A stretch of DNA of 36,897 nt, taken from Actinomycetota bacterium. Its GTDB lineage: Bacteria; Actinomycetota; Acidimicrobiia; Acidimicrobiales; Ilumatobacteraceae. Position 1 is the first letter of the stretch; each line of letters begins with the position of its first letter. The notes beneath the pieces were generated by a model. The model made no database searches and was not told the DNA's origin. It was given only the letters and a program-made list of their open reading frames with translations. Positions 25,273 through 35,587 of this stretch are shown one piece after another. The translations under genes and the position numbers were made by a program. The stretch spans positions 1 to 36,897 of the forward strand of contig RFST01000003.1 in NCBI GenBank assembly GCA_009923855.1, read 5' to 3'.

Positions 25273-26217
25273 TCAGTCGCGGTCGTCGCGGGCCGGTGTG
25301 GTCTCGGCAAAGGCGCGTTCGACGTCGGCCGTGGTGAGCGGCACCTCGGCATTACCCACGATTTCCGCATCGGGCATACGGCTGCCGCGGCGGTAGTCGT
25401 GGCTGGTGCGGAAATCTTTGGCGAACTGGGTGAAGTAATAGATCACCAGGCCCCACAAGAAGATGCCGCCACCGAGTTTCATGAACGCACCCGCAAGCTG
25501 CTGGTCGGATGCCACCGAGATCCCCCATAGCCGCAGTGGTACCTCGTAGGCGGTGTACACGGTGCCCTCGGCGAAGGTGAGCCAGGCCGCGGGGATGGTG
25601 GGCACAATCGACTGGGCAAACAGGTAGATCATCTTGCCGACCACACCGATGCGGAACTCCTCAATGGGCCCGATGACCGGCATCCACATCAGCAATGAGG
25701 TGACCACAACCGCAACATGCAGCCCGTAGTGCAGGGCACCGTTCCAGAAGCCATCACCGACCGAGGCGTTCACCAGCAACGGGATGTGGGTGAGCATGGC
25801 CACACCGTTGAACACCACGCCGGCGACGACGGGTCGGGTGAGCCAGCGCACCGCGCGATACAGGCCACCGTCGCCGATCAGAATCCGCATCAGCCATGCC
25901 GGAGTGGCCAGCAGTGCAAGCGGTGGGATGAAGAAGCTGAGGGCCATGTGCTGCACCATGTGCACGGAGTACAGGTAGTCCTCGCTGATGTCATGCACGG
26001 GCCAATCTGATGACACCCACAGCAGCGCCATGGCCGCACCGAAGGCATACAGATTGCGTCGCGTGACGACCGGTTGCCCAGCGGGCACGGCCTTGGGGCC
26101 GATGACGCGGACGGTGTAGATGTATGCCGCAGTCAGGAAGCCGACGAGCAGCCACACCTCGGGGTGCGCCACGAAATCCCACGGGTCGAGATTCCAGTTG
26201 TCGGTCTGGGCGACCAT
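25273..26217 (-). CDS. ctaG: Cytochrome c oxidase assembly protein CtaG (caa3 type)
   Basis: The 314-residue polytopic membrane protein matches the CtaG_caa3 family. It has SSDWPVHDISEDYLYSVHMVQHM, a His-rich motif that may bind copper, then LLATPAWLMR, MLTHIPLLVNASV, HYGLHV and MWMPVIGP. This family, distinct from the Cox11-type CtaG, is needed for active caa3/aa3 oxidase and probably helps insert CuB into subunit I. The ATG at 26217 has GGAG five bases upstream. It is the last of the oxidase gene run (40 bp after ctaF). The C-terminal tail is charged and cytoplasmic. Confidence 0.92.
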   Translation of the reverse strand: MVAQTDNWNLDPWDFVAHPEVWLLVGFLTAAYIYTVRVIGPKAVPAGQPVVTRRNLYAFGAAMALLWVSSDWPVHDISEDYLYSVHMVQHMALSFFIPPLALLATPAWLMRILIGDGGLYRAVRWLTRPVVAGVVFNGVAMLTHIPLLVNASVGDGFWNGALHYGLHVAVVVTSLLMWMPVIGPIEEFRIGVVGKMIYLFAQSIVPTIPAAWLTFAEGTVYTAYEVPLRLWGISVASDQQLAGAFMKLGGGIFLWGLVIYYFTQFAKDFRTSHDYRRGSRMPDAEIVGNAEVPLTTADVERAFAETTPARDDRD

Positions 26218-26257: not shown

Positions 26258-26587
26258 TCAGGACGAGAAGAAATGCATGCTCAGCAAGAACACGCCATAA
26301 CAGCCAATGGCTAGGAACATGCCGATGTAGAACATCAACCCGAACAACTTTGAGTCGAACTTCAGGTGCATGAAGTACAAGATCACGCAGAAGAACTTGA
26401 TGCCCATCAGGATCAACAGCAGCGGGAGGAATGCCGCACCGAGTTGATCTTGGGTGTAGCTGAGCGCCACTTCGATGGCGGTCACCACGGCCAAGAAGAC
26501 GGCGATCTTCACGTAGCCCATGTCGGACAGGCCATGAGACTCGCCCTCGTGGGTGTCGTGATGCTGGTCGGTGTCGGTGACGGTCAT
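26258..26587 (-). CDS. ctaF: Cytochrome c oxidase subunit IV (COX4_pro/CtaF type)
   Basis: The 109-residue protein has a His/Asp-rich N-terminus (DTDQHHDTHEGESHGLSD) and three membrane spans, with KIAVFLAVVTAIEVALSY, GIKFFCVILYFMHLKFDS and FYIGMFLAIGCYGVFLL. The LYFMHLKFDS motif is diagnostic for the prokaryotic subunit IV family. It stabilises the subunit I/III core. GAGG lies upstream of the ATG at 26587; the longer frame to 26650 overlaps ctaE and is not needed. The canonical CtaD of this operon also carries a fused two-span tail of actinobacterial subunit IV type, so two subunit IV-like elements are encoded. Confidence 0.92.
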   Translation of the reverse strand: MTVTDTDQHHDTHEGESHGLSDMGYVKIAVFLAVVTAIEVALSYTQDQLGAAFLPLLLILMGIKFFCVILYFMHLKFDSKLFGLMFYIGMFLAIGCYGVFLLSMHFFSS

Positions 26588-26607
26588 GATGTCCTCGCTG
26601 GTGGGCG

Positions 26608-27234
26608 TCAGGCCGGGATCAGGTAGACGAGGGTGAAGATCAGAATCCACACCACGTCAACGAAGTGCCAGTACAAGCCGAACAGTTCCACGGTTTCGGC
26701 TTTGTCGCCGGGCACCCGATTTTTGCCGATCATGCCGACCAACGAGGTCAACATGATGATGCCAACGGTGACGTGCACACCGTGGAATCCGGTGAGCGTG
26801 TAGAAGCTGGATGAGAACAGGCTCGTGGTGAAGCCGAGGCCCTCGCGGTAGAAGGTGGTGAATTCGTACACCTGGCCGGCCACGAAGAGCGCGCCGAGCA
26901 GGGCCGTCACCATCAACCAGACCTTGGTGTTGCGGTCGTCTTTGCGGTGCGCAGATGACACTGCGAGCACCATCGTCAGTGACGACATGAGCAAAACGAA
27001 GCTCGACGCCGAGGTGAAGGGAATGTCCCACACCTGGTCGGGGCCCAAGTTCTCCGAGTGGCGACCGCGGTAGAGCATGTAGGTGGAGATCAGGCCGCCG
27101 AAGAGCAGGCACTCCGACCCGAGGAACATCCACATCGCCAACTTGTTGTTGGACAGACCAGTGGAGGTGTGATGCGCCCCGTGGTCGTCGTGGGCGTCAT
27201 GTCCGGTGGCCGGGGCCACGGCGGTGTCAGCCAT
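26608..27234 (-). CDS. ctaE: Cytochrome c oxidase subunit III
   Basis: The 208-residue protein has a His-rich N-terminus (TGHDAHDDHGAHH) and five membrane spans. Diagnostic motifs are MWMFLGSECLLFGGLISTY, GQVYEFTTFYREGL, FYTLTGFHGVHV and the final YWHFVDVVWILIF. It binds lipid and keeps proton uptake stable in subunit I. The ATG at 27234 overlaps the ctaD stop by 8 bases. The frame continues to 27345, but that part is antiparallel to nothing sensible and overlaps ctaD. All conserved Glu/His positions are present, in contrast to the subunit III-like protein at 31702-32280. Confidence 0.95.
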   Translation of the reverse strand: MADTAVAPATGHDAHDDHGAHHTSTGLSNNKLAMWMFLGSECLLFGGLISTYMLYRGRHSENLGPDQVWDIPFTSASSFVLLMSSLTMVLAVSSAHRKDDRNTKVWLMVTALLGALFVAGQVYEFTTFYREGLGFTTSLFSSSFYTLTGFHGVHVTVGIIMLTSLVGMIGKNRVPGDKAETVELFGLYWHFVDVVWILIFTLVYLIPA

Positions 27235-29239
27235 GAGCGGCGACCTCCAGTTCGGTGCCGGCAGCCGGCGGGTCGTAGTCGTCGTCGGGTGCGGTGTGGG
27301 GCTCCATGCCCCAGCCGTACATCGACAGCAGCGCGAGTGCCGCACCGCCGGCGATCAGCCAGATGTTGTAGATCACGCCGTAGGCCATGATCGGCAGCGC
27401 GAGCGACAGTAGAATCGGCCAGTACGACGGCGACGGCAGATGGATGTGGCTGTCTCCCTTGGCCTCCTCTTCAGCAACGATCTCTTCTGCGGTGGCCACC
27501 TGGTGGTAGTCGTGATGATCGCCTTCGCCACGGTCTTCATACTTGCGATGGAAGAACTCGTCGAGGTGGCCCACGGTGGGGGTCCGGTCGAAGTTGTGCT
27601 CCTTCGGCGGGCTGGTGGTAATCCACTCGAGGCTGCGGGCATCCCACGGGTCGAGCGGCGCCTTCTGCGTGCCCTTGCGATGCGACACGTAGATGTTCAC
27701 GAAGAACATCAGCACGCCGAGCGCGAGGACAAACGATCCGATGGAGGCGATCAGGTTCCAGAACCCGATGTTGAAGAATCCTTCACCGGCGCGGTTCTCG
27801 GTCCACCTGTACATACGGCGCGGCTGGCCTTGCAGACCGAGCACGTGCATCGGGCCGAAGGTGAGGTTCATGCCGATGATGGTCAGCCAGAAGTTCCAGC
27901 GTCCCATGCGCTCGTTCAGCATCTTGCCGAACATCTTCGGCCACCAGTAGTAGAGGCCGGAGAACAGACCGAGCACGGCACCACCGAAGATCACGTAGTG
28001 GAAGTGCGCCACGATGTAGTAGGTGTCGGTCTGCTGAGTATCCGACGGCGCAACCGAGTGGGTGACGCCGGACAGACCACCGATGGTGAACTGCACGATC
28101 ACACCGACCGCGTACAGCATGGGCACGGTGAACTTCAGTTTGCCGCCCCACATGGTCATCACCCAGTTGATGATCTTGACGCCGGTGGGAATGGCAATGG
28201 CCATGGTGGCCACGGAGAACACGGCCACCGAGATGGGGCCGAGGCCGGAGGCGAACATGTGGTGGGCCCACACGCCCCATCCGACGAAACCGATCGCGGC
28301 GCCCGAGAACACCACCAGCGGGTAGCCGAACAGCGGCTTCTTCGAGAACACCGGCAGCACTTCGGACACGATGCCGAAGGCCGGCAGAACGATGATGTAC
28401 ACCTCGGGGTGACCGAAGATCCAGAAAAGGTGCTGCCACAGCAGCGGGTCGGCACCGGCTTCCACCGAGAAGAAGGTGGCATCGAAACTGCGCTGGAACA
28501 TCAACAGGAACAGCGCGACGGTGATGACCGGGATGGCGAACAGCAACAGGAACTGCACCACCATGATCATCCAGGTGAAGATGGGTACCTTCATCAGGCT
28601 CATGCCGGGTGCGCGCATGTTGATCACGGTGACGATCAAGTTGATGGCGCCGGTGAGCGATGCGATACCGGTGATCTGCAGGCCGAGCGCCCAGAAGTCC
28701 ACACCGTTGGTCGGCGAGAAAGCCACCGAGGAGTTCGGGGCGTACATGAACCAACCACCGTCGGCGGCACCACCCAAGATCCAGGAGGTGTTCAAGAACA
28801 GGCCACCGAACAGGAACGTCCAGAAACCGAACGCGTTGATGCGGGGGAAGGCCACGTCGCGGGCGCCGATCTGCAGCGGCACCATGTAGTTGGCGAAGGC
28901 GGCCGCCATCGGCATGACAAACAGGAACACCATGGTGGTTGCGTGCATGGTGAACATCTGGTTGTAGGCATCAGCCGACAACACGGTGCCGTCGGGGCCG
29001 GCGAGCTGCAACCGGATCAGCAGGGCTTCGATACCGCCGATGACGAAGAACGCCATGGCGACGACGCCGTACATGATGCCGAGCTTCTTGTGGTCGATGG
29101 TGAACAGCCACGACTTCCAGCCGGTGGTTTCCACCGGGCGACGGAACACACCGTAGGAGGTGGCCGGTGTGGCCACCGCAGGTGCGGCGTCGGGGCTGAC
29201 GACAGCAGGTGTGTCGGTCGGTCGTTCGATGATGGCCAT
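27227..29239 (-). CDS. ctaD: Cytochrome c oxidase subunit I, with subunit IV-like C-terminal fusion
   Basis: The 670-residue catalytic subunit has all redox ligands. His 99 (MFTMHATTMVF) and His 414 are for low-spin haem a. His 277 with cross-linked Tyr 281 (GHPEVY) and His 326/327 (WAHHMF) are for CuB. His 412 (VAHFHYVIFGG) is for haem a3. The D-channel region (QIGARDVAFPRINA) is intact. After the usual end (LEWITTSPPKEHNF) comes a His/Glu-rich linker. A two-span tail follows at about 600-650 (LPSPSYWPILL, then LIAGGAALALLSMYGWGMEP), resembling the C-terminal half of actinobacterial subunit IV. GAGG upstream of the ATG overlaps the ctaC stop. Confidence 0.97.
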   Translation of the reverse strand: MAIIERPTDTPAVVSPDAAPAVATPATSYGVFRRPVETTGWKSWLFTIDHKKLGIMYGVVAMAFFVIGGIEALLIRLQLAGPDGTVLSADAYNQMFTMHATTMVFLFVMPMAAAFANYMVPLQIGARDVAFPRINAFGFWTFLFGGLFLNTSWILGGAADGGWFMYAPNSSVAFSPTNGVDFWALGLQITGIASLTGAINLIVTVINMRAPGMSLMKVPIFTWMIMVVQFLLLFAIPVITVALFLLMFQRSFDATFFSVEAGADPLLWQHLFWIFGHPEVYIIVLPAFGIVSEVLPVFSKKPLFGYPLVVFSGAAIGFVGWGVWAHHMFASGLGPISVAVFSVATMAIAIPTGVKIINWVMTMWGGKLKFTVPMLYAVGVIVQFTIGGLSGVTHSVAPSDTQQTDTYYIVAHFHYVIFGGAVLGLFSGLYYWWPKMFGKMLNERMGRWNFWLTIIGMNLTFGPMHVLGLQGQPRRMYRWTENRAGEGFFNIGFWNLIASIGSFVLALGVLMFFVNIYVSHRKGTQKAPLDPWDARSLEWITTSPPKEHNFDRTPTVGHLDEFFHRKYEDRGEGDHHDYHQVATAEEIVAEEEAKGDSHIHLPSPSYWPILLSLALPIMAYGVIYNIWLIAGGAALALLSMYGWGMEPHTAPDDDYDPPAAGTELEVAAHG

Positions 29240-29248
29240 ATCAGGACC

Positions 29249-30577
29249 TCACTTACGCTCGAGCAGGTAGGCAATGAGTTCGTCGATCTGGTCCTCGGAA
29301 AGTGCCAGATAGGGCATGCCGCGCGTCTTGCCGTCGGTTTCGGTCAGCATTTCGGCATCGGCATACATCGGCTTCTTGGCCGGTGAGTTGCGGAGCCATT
29401 CGCGCAGTTCGATTTCGTTCAGACAATCCTCGGTGACGCCGGCCAGGTAGCGCTCGCCGAACACCTCGGGGTCCGCTTCCCACACGTCGGCTCGACACTC
29501 GTCGGTGAGCAGATCGAAGGTGGCGCCAGCGAAGGTGTTGCGACCCATCAGATTGGTGAGGTTCGGTGCCGCGCCGGAGTACACGAACTGGTCGGGGTAC
29601 GACACCACCAAGGTGTCGTCATCGGGGTCGTCGGTGCCACGGTCATCCACCAGCCCGTTCACCTGGTGGCAGCGCGAGCACTGAGTGATGAAAGTGGCCT
29701 CACCAGCGGCAGCAAGGGTGCCTTCTTCCGGCGACGTATACGGCTCGAGTTCGTTGTCCAACCACTGCTGGAAGTGGTCGGGTTCCAACACGATGGTCTC
29801 CATGCGCATGTTGGCGTGACTGAGGCCGCAGAACTCGGTGCACTGCCCGGCGTAGATGCCAGGCGTCTCCGATGAGAGGCGCAGGTAGTGCACGCGCCCG
29901 GGCACCATGTCGCGCTTGCCGTTCAGGCGCGGGATCCAGTAGCTGTGAATCACGTCGCGGCTGGTACCACGCAGCAACACCTTGGTGTCGGCGGGGATTA
30001 CCAACTGGCCGGAGGTGACGATCGGAGCAGCCTCAGCGGCGGTGGGGGCGAACCCGCAGATAGTGCCATCGTCTTCGACCTCGTAGTCGTATTCCCACCA
30101 CCACTGCTGGCCGGTGACGTTGATGACACATTCGGTGTCGTCGGTGTCGGCGAGGGCCATGACCACGCCCACGGTTGGGATGGCGATCGCGGCGAGGATC
30201 ACCGCCGGGATAGCGATGAAGAGATACTCGATGACGGGCTTGCCATGGGTCTGCTCGGGCATCGCCTGTCCCTTGTCGCGGAACCGCAGCACGGTCACGG
30301 CTAGCAGGCCGAACACCAACACGCCGACGATGCCAGCGGTGAGGAATACCGGCCACTGCAGATCATGAATCTTCTGTGCGTTCTCGCCGACGGGTTGCCA
30401 GGTGTCCTGCGGTGCGTCGGTGGCGCAGGCTGACAGGGCAATCGCCGCGCCAATGGCAGCGGCGATACCGGGAATACGACGGCGACGGCGGGGGTTGACG
30501 GCGCTCACGCGGTCAAGTGTATGCGCGTCATGTGAGCCGTCCGAGATGGTGCGATCGTGATTCGTGCGACTGCTCAT
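29249..30577 (-). CDS. ctaC: Cytochrome c oxidase subunit II with C-terminal cytochrome c domain
   Basis: The 442-residue lipoprotein-like subunit has a lipobox (ALSAC, Cys 51), two membrane spans (about 74-97 and 116-142) and a CuA cupredoxin domain. The CuA ligands are complete: His 211, Cys 246, Cys 250, His 254 and Met 257 (GQCTEFCGLSHANM), and VTGQQWWWEYDY forms the electron entry patch. A cytochrome c domain follows, with CSRCH at 300-304 and a long insertion. It accepts electrons from cytochrome c or the bc complex. The ATG at 30577 overlaps the upstream stop (ATGA). A GTG at 30508 would give a more typical 28-residue signal peptide and is a real alternative. Confidence 0.95.
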   Translation of the reverse strand: MSSRTNHDRTISDGSHDAHTLDRVSAVNPRRRRRIPGIAAAIGAAIALSACATDAPQDTWQPVGENAQKIHDLQWPVFLTAGIVGVLVFGLLAVTVLRFRDKGQAMPEQTHGKPVIEYLFIAIPAVILAAIAIPTVGVVMALADTDDTECVINVTGQQWWWEYDYEVEDDGTICGFAPTAAEAAPIVTSGQLVIPADTKVLLRGTSRDVIHSYWIPRLNGKRDMVPGRVHYLRLSSETPGIYAGQCTEFCGLSHANMRMETIVLEPDHFQQWLDNELEPYTSPEEGTLAAAGEATFITQCSRCHQVNGLVDDRGTDDPDDDTLVVSYPDQFVYSGAAPNLTNLMGRNTFAGATFDLLTDECRADVWEADPEVFGERYLAGVTEDCLNEIELREWLRNSPAKKPMYADAEMLTETDGKTRGMPYLALSEDQIDELIAYLLERK

Positions 30578-31686
30578 GGCACGACCACCTCGAGTTCAGC
30601 GCTTGACACCCCTGGGACATAGAACCGGTATCCGCCGATATCGGTGATCTCAGGCGCGAAGCTGGGAACAGCGAAATTCACGGTGATCAATTGCACCCCA
30701 CCTGGGTCGACCAAGGTCGTGCAAATTCGCGGTGGCGACCCCTCGTAGTCGGGCGCAAGGTCGATCACGAGGCGGCGCTCCTCATCGGAGTCGTTACGGA
30801 ACAGCAAGTTGTTCGCGTTTGAACGGGGGAGCTGCAAGGCACTGGAGCGATCGGTCTCATCACCGGGCTTGCGGTGCACAAGGGTGCCAGCCGCGGTGAG
30901 GCGCACCTCAGCGTTGCCGGCCTTACCGGCAACCGTCTGGCTGGCGTGCTTGTCGGCGTAAGTTTTTTCGGCGCCGCACTCGTCCTTGGCAGCGATGTAG
31001 GCGGTGGTCTCGTGTTCGTGGATATGCCGTTCACCGTTCAGGCCGCTGACGGCGCCGCCGCCGATGAGCACCACGCCAGACACGGCGAACAGCGCGGTGA
31101 TTTTCGGCGCCGTGATCGATCGCTTGGCACCGACGATGGCGCCCAAGATCAACACGATGGTCGCCACGATCGAGAACGCCACGATGGTGGATGTTTTTGA
31201 TGGCACGCCGAGCATCACTCGCGAGAACGAGTAGATCACGATGCCGAGTCCAATCGCGGCAGCCACCGGCATTTCTGCGGTGTAGGCCAGGCGGCTTCGA
31301 ACTTCGGCGTTATGGCTGGCATCGGCGCTGGCCCGCTCGGACCACGCCTGCAGAATCCATTCGGCGATGCCGGCAACGAACAGGATCGCACCGAGGATGA
31401 AGATCGCCGGGTAGGTCACCAACCCGAGGGTCATGGTGGTGACGGCAAGGCCGAGGGCGAAGGGCCACATGCTGGCACCGGGACGCGCGGCGTTCGCGGC
31501 CGCACCGTCGAAGGTGTCGGGTTCGTCGGCAAACACGTTCGCGTCGCGGGTGAAGATCACGATGCCGGCGAGCGTGGCGAGCGCCACGGTGGCCGAGACC
31601 AACCCGATGGTGCCCATCGTGCCTTCGGCGAGAACGCCGTAGGCCACAGTGCCGGCAAGCGACGCGACGGCTCCGGTGGTGAACAT
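30574..31686 (-). CDS. Polytopic membrane protein with cupredoxin-like tail lacking copper ligands
   Basis: The 370-residue protein has about seven hydrophobic spans (near 3-20, 26-45, 73-92, 94-114, 139-157, 167-187 and 196-216), then an extracytoplasmic domain (about 217-370). That domain opens with HIHEHE (221-226). It ends in a beta-rich stretch (LLFRNDSDEERRLVIDL, then GGYRFYVPGVSSAELEVVVP) that reads like a cupredoxin fold. The Cys-x2-His copper motif is absent. Cys 238 and the Cys in PRICTTLV could pair. I do not recognise a named family. It is 15 bp after the subunit III-like gene and overlaps ctaC by 4 bases. It may play the subunit II part in a redox-inactive paralogous complex; this is inference. 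Confidence 0.7.
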   Translation of the reverse strand: MFTTGAVASLAGTVAYGVLAEGTMGTIGLVSATVALATLAGIVIFTRDANVFADEPDTFDGAAANAARPGASMWPFALGLAVTTMTLGLVTYPAIFILGAILFVAGIAEWILQAWSERASADASHNAEVRSRLAYTAEMPVAAAIGLGIVIYSFSRVMLGVPSKTSTIVAFSIVATIVLILGAIVGAKRSITAPKITALFAVSGVVLIGGGAVSGLNGERHIHEHETTAYIAAKDECGAEKTYADKHASQTVAGKAGNAEVRLTAAGTLVHRKPGDETDRSSALQLPRSNANNLLFRNDSDEERRLVIDLAPDYEGSPPRICTTLVDPGGVQLITVNFAVPSFAPEITDIGGYRFYVPGVSSAELEVVVP

Positions 31687-31701
31687 GTCAGACCTGGGTC
31701 C

Positions 31702-32280
31702 TCACTTGGTGACGTAGACGACGAACCACACGGCCGAGTAGGCCGCGGCGATGAAATACCAGTACATGGCGTGGGCGCTGATGAGTTCGACCTCACGGTC
31801 GCGCCCGCCGAGGGAGCGGAACGCCGCCACCACGGTGTAGACGAGGCCGGCGATGACCAACGCGGCCATGGTTCCGGTCACGGCATAGAACAGGGCGCCG
31901 TAGGCGCTGTCGGCCAGCACCACACCCATGTCGACGTACACGAACGCTTGGGCGTTCACGTAGGCAAGACCCATCAAGAACACCACGCCGAGGGCGAGGG
32001 CGGTGTGGGCGCGGTCGCTGCGACGCGCGGCGTACACGGCCCACTGGGCGAAGAGGCACAGTGACCACACGGTGATCAACATCACGTTGGAGGGCACCTC
32101 GGGAATGATGTAGCTGTCGGGGAAACGCTCCCCTGCCGACACCACTCGTTCGCGGAGCAGCACCCAGATGGCGAGCATGCCGCCGATGAGCATGGTGCCG
32201 GCCACGCCTGCGAGGGCGGTGGCCACGAAGACCTGCCGGCGCGGGGCCGGGGCAGCAGCAGCGGGCAATGCGAGCGTCAC
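31702..32280 (-). CDS. Cytochrome c oxidase subunit III-like protein, divergent
   Basis: The 192-residue protein has five membrane spans and the subunit III pattern: an N-terminal GTMLIGGMLAIWVLLRER, then MLITVWSLCLFAQWAVYAARR, ALFYAVTGTMAALVIAG and a last span with AMYWYFIAAAYSAVWFVVYV. Where the canonical subunit has FYTLTGFHGVHV and YWHFVD, this one has FYAVTGTMAALV and YWYFIA, so the conserved His positions are gone. The GTG at 32280 overlaps the stop of the subunit I-like gene as GTGA and is clearly the right start; the longer frame to 32388 is not credible. It is probably a partner of that subunit I-like protein. Confidence 0.8.
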   Translation of the reverse strand: MTLALPAAAAPAPRRQVFVATALAGVAGTMLIGGMLAIWVLLRERVVSAGERFPDSYIIPEVPSNVMLITVWSLCLFAQWAVYAARRSDRAHTALALGVVFLMGLAYVNAQAFVYVDMGVVLADSAYGALFYAVTGTMAALVIAGLVYTVVAAFRSLGGRDREVELISAHAMYWYFIAAAYSAVWFVVYVTK

Positions 32281-33899
32281 GACGGGCTCCCTTCGGTGCC
32301 GGCGAGGTTGTCGAGTTCGGGTTCGGCCGAGGACACCGTGGGCAGCGCCTCGAAGTTGTCGGCCGGGGCGGGCGAGGCAATCGTCCACTCGAGCGTGTGG
32401 CCACCCACCGGGTTGGCCTCCACCGTGTCGTCGCTGCGCGACGAGGCGATGGCGCCCAAGGTGGCGAGCACGGTCAGTGCCATCAAAGCGTGACCAACGA
32501 GCACGATGCCGTTCAAGATGGTGGATGCGCCGTCACCGTCGTAGATGCCCGCGCCTGCAGGCTGGTCGGTGAAGCCGGCGATGTAGTGCGGCAGCGATGC
32601 CGCCACGGTGGCGATCAGCCCAAGGCCGGCCAGTGGCAACACTTTGCGGTCGGCCACCTGGATGCCCCACAGTTTCGGCGCCCAGAACACCAGAGCACCC
32701 AGTCCGCCGAGCAGGGCGCCGTAGGTGACGTAAACGGCGGCGGCCTCTTCGAACACGGTGCCGGCCAGTTCGAGGTCGTCGATGGCGGCCAGCAGGCTGC
32801 CCGCGGCGCCAGCGAGGATCATCAGCGTCGACACCACACCGAACAGCAGTCCGGCAGAGATCTTCGGGGTGACACGATCGCCCTCGGGCTTGGCGACGAT
32901 GGCGCCGAGCGCCAGCACCACCACGGCGCCGAGCAGCGGCAGACCGTAGAAGAACAGCGCGATGACCGCTTGTTTCACGACATCGGCGCCCTCAGCGGAG
33001 AAATCCACGCCGAAACGCTGCTGTTGTGCCACTCCGGCGAAGGCGCCCACGGCGATCAGACCAAGACCGGCGAACACCACTTGGCGCAGCGGATGGCGGC
33101 GTCCGAAAGCCACCGGCAAGGTCTCGGCCAGCAGGCCAAGCGCGGGCAGCGCGTAGATGTAGGTCATCGGCTGCGACCAGAACATCGAGATCCAGTCACC
33201 GATGGCCTCGGGGCCGCCAAAGGTGAGGCCGGCGTTGCGGGTGTCGACGAACAGCAGCACGATCGCGCCGAACATCACGGGCAGGGCCACCAGCAGTGCG
33301 AGCGATTGCACCAGCGCCGACCAAGTCATGAACGGCACACGCCGAAGGGTCACGCCGGGAGCGCGGGTGGTGAGCACGGTGGTGGCCACGCTGGCCGCCG
33401 AGGCGAGCAGGCCGAGAACGGTGAGGCCGAGACCGGCAAGGAACATGTCGACCATCTGATCGCCGCCACCAATTCCACCGTTGGCGGCGAGAGCGACGAT
33501 GGTGAGGGTGATGCCGCCGAGCCAGGAGTAGAAACCGGTGAGGGCCAAGCGCGGGAACGCCATGGCGCGTGCGCCCACCTGCATCGGTGCGATTGCGATC
33601 GCCACACCGAGCGTGACCGGGATGGCCATGGCGAACACCAGGCCGATGCGATGCAGTTGGAACAGCTGCAACAACGCACCACCGTCGAGCACGTTGCCGG
33701 CATCGTCGGTGCGCTCCAGACCGAGCAGGGCACCGATGACGGCCACTGCCACTGCGGCCAGCAGGCCGGTCACGGCGTAGAGGCGGCCGATCTTTTTGTG
33801 GTCGGTGGACGTGGCCCAGTCGGCGGCTCGGGCCACAAAGGTGCCCACGGTGCCATCACCGAGGGCCGAGGGCCGAGCGGGGGTGTCGATCGTGGTCAT
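32277..33899 (-). CDS. Cytochrome c oxidase subunit I-like protein lacking CuB and haem a3 ligands
   Basis: The 540-residue protein aligns with canonical subunit I from STDHKKIGRLY to the C-terminal HTLEWTIASPAPADNFEALP. Conserved landmarks include MQVGARAMAFPR, TTRAPGVTLRRVPFMTW and FWAPKLWG. His 83 (QLHRIGLVF) matches the first haem a ligand. The other ligands are missing. GHPEVY is replaced by SQPMTY (Gln 243), WAHHMF by VAQQQRF (291-296), and AHFHYV by AAAVYV (386-391) with no His. The D-channel Asp and Asn (GARDVAFPRIN) are Ala and Leu. It cannot bind CuB or haem a3 normally, so oxygen reduction is excluded by sequence. About 12 spans remain. It heads the operon and overlaps the subunit III-like gene. 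Confidence 0.88.
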   Translation of the reverse strand: MTTIDTPARPSALGDGTVGTFVARAADWATSTDHKKIGRLYAVTGLLAAVAVAVIGALLGLERTDDAGNVLDGGALLQLFQLHRIGLVFAMAIPVTLGVAIAIAPMQVGARAMAFPRLALTGFYSWLGGITLTIVALAANGGIGGGDQMVDMFLAGLGLTVLGLLASAASVATTVLTTRAPGVTLRRVPFMTWSALVQSLALLVALPVMFGAIVLLFVDTRNAGLTFGGPEAIGDWISMFWSQPMTYIYALPALGLLAETLPVAFGRRHPLRQVVFAGLGLIAVGAFAGVAQQQRFGVDFSAEGADVVKQAVIALFFYGLPLLGAVVVLALGAIVAKPEGDRVTPKISAGLLFGVVSTLMILAGAAGSLLAAIDDLELAGTVFEEAAAVYVTYGALLGGLGALVFWAPKLWGIQVADRKVLPLAGLGLIATVAASLPHYIAGFTDQPAGAGIYDGDGASTILNGIVLVGHALMALTVLATLGAIASSRSDDTVEANPVGGHTLEWTIASPAPADNFEALPTVSSAEPELDNLAGTEGSPS

Positions 33900-34098: not shown

Positions 34099-35067
34099 TC
34101 AGACGAGAACGTCGAGGGTGAGCGCGGCGAACAACACACTCACATAGGTGATCGAGAAGCCGAACACCCGCATGGAACGGGCCTCGGTGGGTTCCCGACG
34201 CAACCATTCGCAGGCCCACAGGAACGCGGCGCCCAATGCGGCGGCTGAGATCACGTAGATCGGGCCGAGCCCGGCGCCATCACCGGCAATGGTGGTGTCG
34301 CCGTTGGCCACGGGCACCAATACCAATGTGGTGGTAACGAGAGCGATGGTGTGGCCAATCATCTGGACGTAGGCGTTCTTGAACGGCACGACCGCGGGCA
34401 GCATCGGCACGTTCGCCGCCCGATAGTCGTCGGCGTAGCGCATGGCGAGCGCCCAGAAGTGCGGCGGAGTCCAAAAGAAGATGGCCGCGAAGAGCACCAC
34501 GGGGGTCCAGGTGAGGTCATTGTTCACCGCGGCCCAGCCGACCAGCACTGGCACGGCTCCCGCCGCACCACCGATCACGATGTTCTGGCGACTGGTGCGC
34601 TTCAACCACAGGGTGTAGACCCCCACATAAAACGCGGTCGCGGATGCGGCGAGGATGGCCGCGAGCAGGTTGGCCCCGGCCCACAGCACCGCAAAAGCCG
34701 CAATTTCTAGGGACAGGGCGAACACCAGCGCTTCTCGTGGTTGCACCACGCCGGTGACCAGCGGCCGGGTGCGGGTGCGTTCCATCAACGCGTCGATGTC
34801 GCGGTCGACATACATATTGATGGCGTTGGCACCACCGGCGGCCAGGCTGCCGCCGATCAGGGTGATGATGACGAGTCCAAGACCGGGCCATCCGCCGTCG
34901 GCGAGCACCATGGTGGGCACGGTGGTGATCAGCAAAAGTTCGATGATGCGCGGTTTGGTGAGCGCGATGAATGCGCCGACACGGCTGCTGGGAGCGCGGC
35001 GGCTGCCGTGGGCCACTCCTCCGGGGGCAAGCCGCGAGGGGACGAGGGGGCGGCTGCCGAGGCTCAT
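34099..35067 (-). CDS. ctaB: Haem O synthase (protohaem IX farnesyltransferase)
   Basis: The 322-residue UbiA-family prenyltransferase has about nine spans. Its two Asp-rich motifs are [22 protein letters not shown] (diphosphate/Mg binding, first loop) and [15 protein letters not shown] in the later loop. [13 protein letters not shown] is diagnostic for CtaB. It adds a farnesyl group to haem B, the first step to haem A needed by the oxidase downstream. The ATG at 35067 has a perfect AGGAGG three bases upstream, which rules out the longer frame to 35346. The 199-bp gap to the subunit I-like gene (33900-34098) shows no clear terminator or promoter. Confidence 0.95.
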
Positions 35068-35245
35068 GGTCCTCCTAGCGTACGGCCACCCCGCTGTAGC
35101 GGCCAACGCCGGCTCGGGTCGTGCGTGTGTGCATGTTGACAATGTGGCCCCATGCGGCGTCACCGCCGAGGTGATGGCAACCGAGCTGGCGCATGGCCGT
35201 TGGGTGACGGTTGAGCCAGTCACCGCTTCGGGGCACACTGGGTTG

Positions 35246-35587
35246 GTGAGCAGTCGGCCCGAGCGCAGCGCAACCCGTGTCTGCGCGGTGGCCGTCCGGG
35301 CGTCAATCGTCGAGACCGCCCCGGTCGTTGATGCCGATGCCGACACCGCTCAGGATCGGCCGTGGAAGGTCATTGTGTGGAACGACCCGGTGAACCTCAT
35401 GAGTTATGTCACCTTCGTGCTGCAGAAACTGTTCGGCTACGACCTCGACACTGCAACAGCGCTGATGCTCGAAGTGCATCACGATGGCCGTGCGGTGGTG
35501 GCCGACGGTGGCCGCGAAGAAGCCGAAATGCACGTGTTCCGGCTACACGAACATGGGTTGTGGGCCACGATGGAGCACGACTCGTGA
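35246..35587 (+). CDS. clpS: ATP-dependent Clp protease adaptor ClpS
   Basis: The 113-residue protein has the ClpS core: [29 protein letters not shown] (N-degron pocket with Asn-Asp-Pro), [37 protein letters not shown]. It delivers N-end-rule substrates to ClpAP/ClpCP. The N-terminal tail is unstructured. The start is uncertain. GTG at 35246 follows a possible -35 (TTGAGC, 35212-35217), a 17-base spacer, CACACT as a poor -10, and six bases to the GTG, a leaderless layout. GTG at 35288 would give a 99-residue form. DUF2017 follows 31 bp later, the usual actinobacterial arrangement. Confidence 0.92.

Follow-up and report, generated by a model that had tools for sequence, protein, structure and literature searches.

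A stretch of 36,897 nucleotides from an Actinomycetota bacterium of the family Ilumatobacteraceae, order Acidimicrobiales (assembly GCA_009923855.1, contig RFST01000003.1; called the window below), carries three consecutive genes, psD, psE and psX, directly in front of an intact cytochrome oxidase operon. Their products appear to be a catalytically dead, oxidase-like membrane complex dedicated to the downstream caa3-type oxidase, likeliest as a platform for its assembly – a reading that we regard as evenly balanced between right and wrong. The gene order is ctaB-psD-psE-psX-ctaC-ctaD-ctaE-ctaF-ctaG, all on the minus strand. psD (32277–33899) encodes a COX1-like pseudo-subunit I of 540 amino acids, and psE (31702–32280) a COX3-like subunit III of 192 amino acids, counted from a GTG start that overlaps the psD stop codon. 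psX (30574–31686) encodes 370 amino acids with seven transmembrane (TM) helices, a subunit IV-like part followed by a 3-TM part, and a C-terminal degenerate cupredoxin domain (30577–30942, about residues 249–370). The coordinates and junctions given in an earlier note on this DNA are correct: psD and psE overlap by GTGA, psE and psX are 15 bp apart, and psX and ctaC overlap by ATGA. The last overlap is likely rather than certain, because ctaC carries a lipoprotein-like signal (LSAC) and its natural start could be a GTG within the open reading frame (ORF).

Subunit I is the catalytic subunit of haem-copper oxidases, and psD has its fold without its active site. The window protein scores 114 bits against the COX1 profile (cut-off 34.8; E 9e-33). 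Its predicted single-chain structure (predicted local distance difference test, pLDDT, 88; predicted template modelling score, pTM, 0.90) contains the complete 12-TM COX1 fold and aligns with mycobacterial subunit I 6adq_F over 497 residues (Z 38.2; root-mean-square deviation, rmsd, 2.9). Judged as a catalytic A-type haem-copper oxygen reductase subunit I, psD has the fold but lacks the CuB His, the haem His and the K-channel Lys. In the window, none of the three CuB ligands and no haem a3 ligand is left, and one of two low-spin haem ligand positions is still His (His83, 33651–33653); Gln243 (33171–33173) occupies the CuB helix VI His position and Ala388 (32736–32738) the haem a3 His position in helix X. 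All six His are kept by each of the 48 bona fide subunit I proteins compared, and the K-channel Lys is present in 47 of these 48 vs 0 of 62 psD proteins. The three FeB His of the nitric oxide reductase NorB sit at the CuB His positions, and a complete NorB-type set was found there in none of the 62 psD. There is strong reason to think that psD of the window's family is unable to reduce O2, and it is probably without haem.

Across the 62 psD proteins, ligand loss is graded. The CuB site is complete in none, with no His in 59 and one of three in the other 3. All three haem His are kept in 8, the low-spin pair only in 15, the helix II and haem a3 His in 1, the helix II His only in 11, and none in 27. 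The minimum number of changes on the tree is one for CuB, seven for haem a3 and three for the low-spin pair. A single loss of the CuB site appears to have preceded the divergence of the known psD lineages; several lineages then lost the haem a3 ligand and, later, low-spin haem ligands. The window lineage, with one His left, is near the far end of this series. The earlier note was right that metal ligands and conserved His had been lost; its description of the proteins as redox-inactive fits the window's family but not the whole family, in which 23 of 62 psD keep the low-spin pair and 21 of 61 psX an intact copper motif.

The adjacent oxidase, which had been called aa3, is better described as caa3-type, since CtaC (29249–30577, domain match) has a C-terminal cytochrome c domain; CtaD (27227–29239), the subunit I of this oxidase, retains all ligands. 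The three upstream proteins had been proposed to mirror its subunits I, III and II, and this is not supported. A subunit I tree was built from a sample chosen by group – 62 psD with 14, 12, 4 and 18 others, the 48 bona fide subunit I proteins – leaving out ORFs of 470 amino acids or less (contig-edge pieces). It was made by a quick method and has long branches and an unknown root; in it all 62 psD form a single clade (Shimodaira–Hasegawa-like approximate likelihood ratio test, SH-aLRT, 100), separate from all 48 bona fide sequences. A branch with a support of 98 parts 44 caa3-like and other sequences from psD and the actinobacterial-type sequences. An origin of psD as a copy of the adjacent ctaD was rejected, as the psD clade stands apart from it, on the side of actinobacterial aa3-type CtaD. 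The closest solved chains to psD are mycobacterial aa3 subunit I. psD appears to be old and actinobacterial-like, and we infer that its ancestor was an actinobacterial aa3-type oxidase. By both the tree and the ratio of non-synonymous to synonymous substitution rates (dN/dS), psD evolves faster than CtaD.

The other two proteins point to the same group of enzymes. Subunits I, III and IV of the actinobacterial bcc-aa3 oxidase (CtaD/CtaE/CtaF; PDB 6adq, 6hwh) are the best solved relatives and include the top structural match for psD. psE matches COX3 (E 6.5e-8), its best NCBIfam match is aa3_CtaE_Actin (E 1.9e-12), and its PDB matches include mycobacterial subunit 3. The N-terminus of psX scores 20.1 bits against Cyt_c_ox_IV (PF12270), below the curated cut-off of 26.9, and in a profile search of solved proteins residues 7–117 match actinobacterial oxidase polypeptide 4 (E 0.0028–0.024); it appears related to actinobacterial subunit IV, though short of family membership. 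The module differs from the bcc-aa3 subunits in the missing catalytic ligands of psD, in the additional helices and cupredoxin domain of psX, and in lacking its own subunit II.

psX does not correspond to subunit II; it joins a subunit IV-like part to a 3-TM cupredoxin part. It reads as a fusion, because the two parts of its profile match two separate proteins elsewhere: columns 1–121 correspond to small proteins of subunit IV-like type and to an extension at the C-terminus of some CtaD, while columns about 130–230 match a separate protein, frequently bearing cupredoxin domains, whose gene closes the ctaCDEFG run of other Actinomycetota. This 3-TM cupredoxin protein (L114–L133) is homologous to the middle of psX, and copper-protein families scored over cut-off in 5 of 6 scanned; unlike psX, it is a separate gene, mostly after ctaG, with no subunit IV-like part attached. 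Some oxidase-operon cupredoxin proteins have two or three tandem cupredoxin domains (L128:7379–8698, L130:6857–7834, L235:5741–7162). The psX profile also matches solved auracyanin A with its tail (E 1e-4). Seven TM helices plus a beta domain are predicted for the window psX (mean pLDDT 71, pTM 0.42; tail mostly 80–90). A fold search made with residues 249–370 only, the TM part being barely covered, gave a cupredoxin fold for the modelled tail (Z 10.8, rmsd 2.1, 87 residues aligned). The type-1 copper motif (His, Cys, His, Met) was not found in the window psX tail; the protein has two Cys, at positions 237 and 322. At 31650–31690, about 7 residues after MFTTGA are absent from the window psX relative to its near relative G001, which would fit a 21-base deletion where the first helix begins.

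The 40 psX tails other than the 21 with an intact copper motif comprise 12 with a degenerate domain, all in the window's family, 26 that are short and 2 with another tail; a record labelled acIV (L223) carries the degenerate-tail type. The copper motif is intact at 19 of the 23 loci whose psD keeps the low-spin pair, vs 2 of 38 others (Fisher's exact test, p 5e-10, uncorrected for kinship). As linked traits on the tree, haem state and copper state are not significantly associated, with only 3 independent pairs, and their joint loss may be shared ancestry.

The three genes are a conserved unit, as the earlier note had supposed; the outcome that it named as refuting, no co-occurrence in other genomes, did not arise in a neighbourhood survey of the three families. 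All three are present in 108 of 122 loci that have at least one searched gene. A 4-nt overlap joins psD to psE in 52 of 110 loci, psX to ctaC in 56 of 107, and ctaB to psD in 18 of 104 (in these locus and junction counts, some records of one genome were fetched and counted twice). The order ctaB-psD-psE-psX-ctaC-ctaD-ctaE-ctaF-ctaG was found wherever the contig permits in 40 neighbourhoods (L023–L062). The exceptions are L051, L054, L057 and L061, which hold another oxidase operon; L055 and L026, which are cut; L046, without detected psX and downstream genes; and L034, without ctaB within 4 kb in front of psD. psX and ctaC are separated by about 5 kb in L244 (8950–13930) and L142; by eye, the intervening block in L244 suggests a Fur-type regulator together with zinc-type ABC uptake genes. 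Of 59 loci with data, 7 have a thioredoxin-like gene in the psX–ctaC interval (redoxin E 4e-15 in the one locus checked against Pfam), as found with a crude motif that gave none in three loci with gaps of 570–708 bp. At that frequency, it was rejected as a constant part of the module.

The tie to the oxidase was examined in 198 genomes of Acidimicrobiales, all at least 90% complete except the window's own, with psX called by profile and neighbour-type CtaD by an E below 1e-180. psX was found in 132 genomes and this CtaD in 126; 123 genomes had both, 63 had neither, and 12 had one without the other (Fisher p 8.5e-38, ignoring kinship). There is no clear exception to the linkage among the 12. 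G673 and G686 have the module after all (with a weaker psX); the sequence is cut inside ctaC in G705, inside ctaD in G230 (L135), and by a contig end in G040 and G605; the psX match is broken in G059; and in G619, G633, G653 and G667, judged from coordinates only, psX lies within about 2.5 kb of a contig end on the expected ctaC/ctaD side. In G607 the oxidase is present with a frame break: its CtaD is divided over two frames (L237:6638–8802), by sequencing error or genuinely. Closed genomes of the window's family, probably from cultured Ilumatobacter, carry the module. One 96% complete genome of this family (G035) has zero subunit I matches. Outside the order, psX of full TM length was not seen in 296 genomes of the class and 296 of the phylum, where hits were partial only, though weak members such as f34 could escape this search; a wider contig scan, limited to two short peptide patterns, does not prove absence elsewhere.

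psD is under strong purifying selection and is not decaying. Of 27 pairs, 26 gave a psD dN/dS of 0.04–0.10 and the remaining one, a partial pair, 0.20; the pairs came from 23 loci and had more than 75% psD identity, and values at dS above 1 are rough. Values for psE, psX and CtaB were similar, those of CtaD lower (0 to 0.04), and no stop codon was seen within the listed psD matches. In 50 matched psD/CtaD pairs, with membrane sides assigned from the topology that we take these proteins to have, psD positions at least 80% conserved made up 30 of 112 in cytoplasmic loops, 3 of 86 in periplasmic loops and 18 of 283 in TM helices (cytoplasmic vs periplasmic p 4e-8). One periplasmic loop motif was not located in the reference, and that loop was counted as TM. 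The corresponding CtaD numbers were 68 of 112, 61 of 107 and 157 of 284 (p 0.40). Conservation in psD thus seems shifted to the cytoplasmic loops, and 28 of the 30 conserved cytoplasmic positions have the CtaD consensus residue.

We infer that the three proteins form one complex – subunits I, III and IV with a cupredoxin arm – that serves the caa3 oxidase. The linkage, co-occurrence and selection described above suggest that the module is kept for a need of that oxidase. How it would serve is a tentative matter, and an assembly platform, at slightly under an even chance, is the mechanism we favour, because the genes lie between ctaB and ctaC, the cytoplasmic face is retained, psX has a cupredoxin arm and a few loci include a thioredoxin-like gene. 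psD would resemble a nascent subunit I on the cytoplasmic face, where CtaB and other maturation factors would dock. The psX arm, a copper cupredoxin in the early branches, would face the periplasm next to CtaC, and coupled translation would set the platform in the membrane just ahead of CtaC and CtaD. The neighbour genes of the early branches look like assembly genes. Several points weigh against a platform. Elsewhere in the phylum, other orders and classes encode oxidases of the same type in a ctaCDEFG operon without psD or psE (20 loci), and the module is therefore not generally required for building them. Shared identity at the 28 cytoplasmic positions could reflect needs of the fold rather than a docking face. 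A permanent subunit would leave much the same genomic evidence, and the low-spin haem and type-1 copper of the early branches suggest electron transfer, not assembly, there.

The main rival is such a permanent subunit: the dead complex would stay on the finished caa3 oxidase, or on the oxidase and a cytochrome bc complex, serving as a blind protomer that lends it stability or links it to partners. The three core-like subunits have all been retained as a set with coupling to ctaC, the fold is complete and under purifying selection, and the window genome (an 86% complete assembly) encodes a cytochrome b of the bc kind and no subunit I proteins other than CtaD and psD. The membrane helices and periplasmic loops of psD are nevertheless far more divergent than those of CtaD – the mean frequency of the top residue is 0.45 and 0.38, respectively, in psD and 0.77 and 0.78 in CtaD – which is unlike a conserved lateral interface. 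A permanent partner is possible but on balance unlikely. As an electron donor, alternative complex III was also considered and is unsupported, since the sole NrfD match of the genome sits in an apparent molybdopterin-oxidoreductase cluster. In that cluster (G000:C58:1–4354), an iron-sulphur/NrfD fusion protein adjoins, by eye, a large molybdopterin-type oxidoreductase.

A redox relay in the early branches is a more doubtful proposal. Type-1 copper in psX and low-spin haem in psD would pass electrons, for instance from quinol or cytochrome to CtaC, without reduction of O2, and the window lineage would have lost the cofactors later. The co-occurrence of low-spin pair and copper motif fits this, as does the minimum of three changes in low-spin state. 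The association is, however, not significant on the tree; 4 low-spin psD are without a psX copper motif and 2 ligand-poor psD are with one; and in the window, where both sites are gone, a relay does not apply. It is also improbable that the order respires with a two-faced oxidase, in which a live caa3 protomer would form a lasting pair with a dead protomer of separate ancestry. The dead partner would still hold low-spin haem and type-1 copper in the early branches and act there as a relay without O2 reduction, and it would be a pure scaffold in the window lineage; the order would thus preserve the steps from oxidase to pseudo-oxidase, in the sequence CuB, then haem a3, then low-spin haem.

That the module is a non-functional relic retained by chance is very improbable: ligand loss is progressive and patchy and psD is faster-evolving than CtaD, but the dN/dS values contradict a relic, as do the absence of internal stops, the full fold and the presence of the module in two-thirds of the genomes (132 of 198). 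It is scarcely credible that the module is a whole alternative oxidase using unusual ligands: the COX1, COX3 and cupredoxin parts are all there, but the idea is already contradicted in the window by the lack of a CuB site, a haem a3 ligand, the K-channel Lys and its own CuA subunit II.

That a dead COX1 can lie next to ctaB is not in itself a new idea. One paper (PMC10715153) describes, in Acetobacter genomes, a COX1-like protein without any metal-binding residues that is clustered with ctaB and for which a structural role, stabilising CtaB, was proposed. This 'deranged COX1-like protein' is the nearest precedent for psD – a ligand-poor COX1 beside ctaB – but it is described as a single gene in its cluster, while psD-psE-psX is an order-wide three-subunit module before an intact caa3 operon, with graded haem ligands and a cupredoxin arm. 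The same paper describes a deranged cytochrome bc1 of acidophilic Acetobacteraceae, likewise a respiratory complex retained after ligand loss with a proposed structural role; it is a different complex and, unlike the psD module, has no intact copy beside it (PMC10715153). A literature search, with subscription papers mostly outside it, found no account of a three-subunit dead module, its order-wide conservation or a stepwise ligand series. A dead I-III-IV complex that a whole order keeps before a live one under strong selection would give the oxidase scaffold a non-catalytic role. The graded natural ligand losses offer a series for studying how folding and assembly depend on cofactors, and for annotation and metagenome pipelines, COX1 and COX3 matches in Acidimicrobiales are often not oxidases.

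The remaining genes of the run were assigned by family match. The first, ctaB (34099–35346), encodes haem O synthase (NF003349, 369 bits, over cut-off). Downstream of ctaD, which was assigned from the ligand table, are ctaE (26608–27231) for subunit III, ctaF (26258–26650) for a COX4_pro-type subunit IV, and ctaG (25273–26217) for a Caa3_CtaG copper assembly factor. The window CtaD ends in two additional helices, which score 30 bits (over cut-off) against the subunit IV family PF12270; the COX4_pro ctaF is a separate gene.

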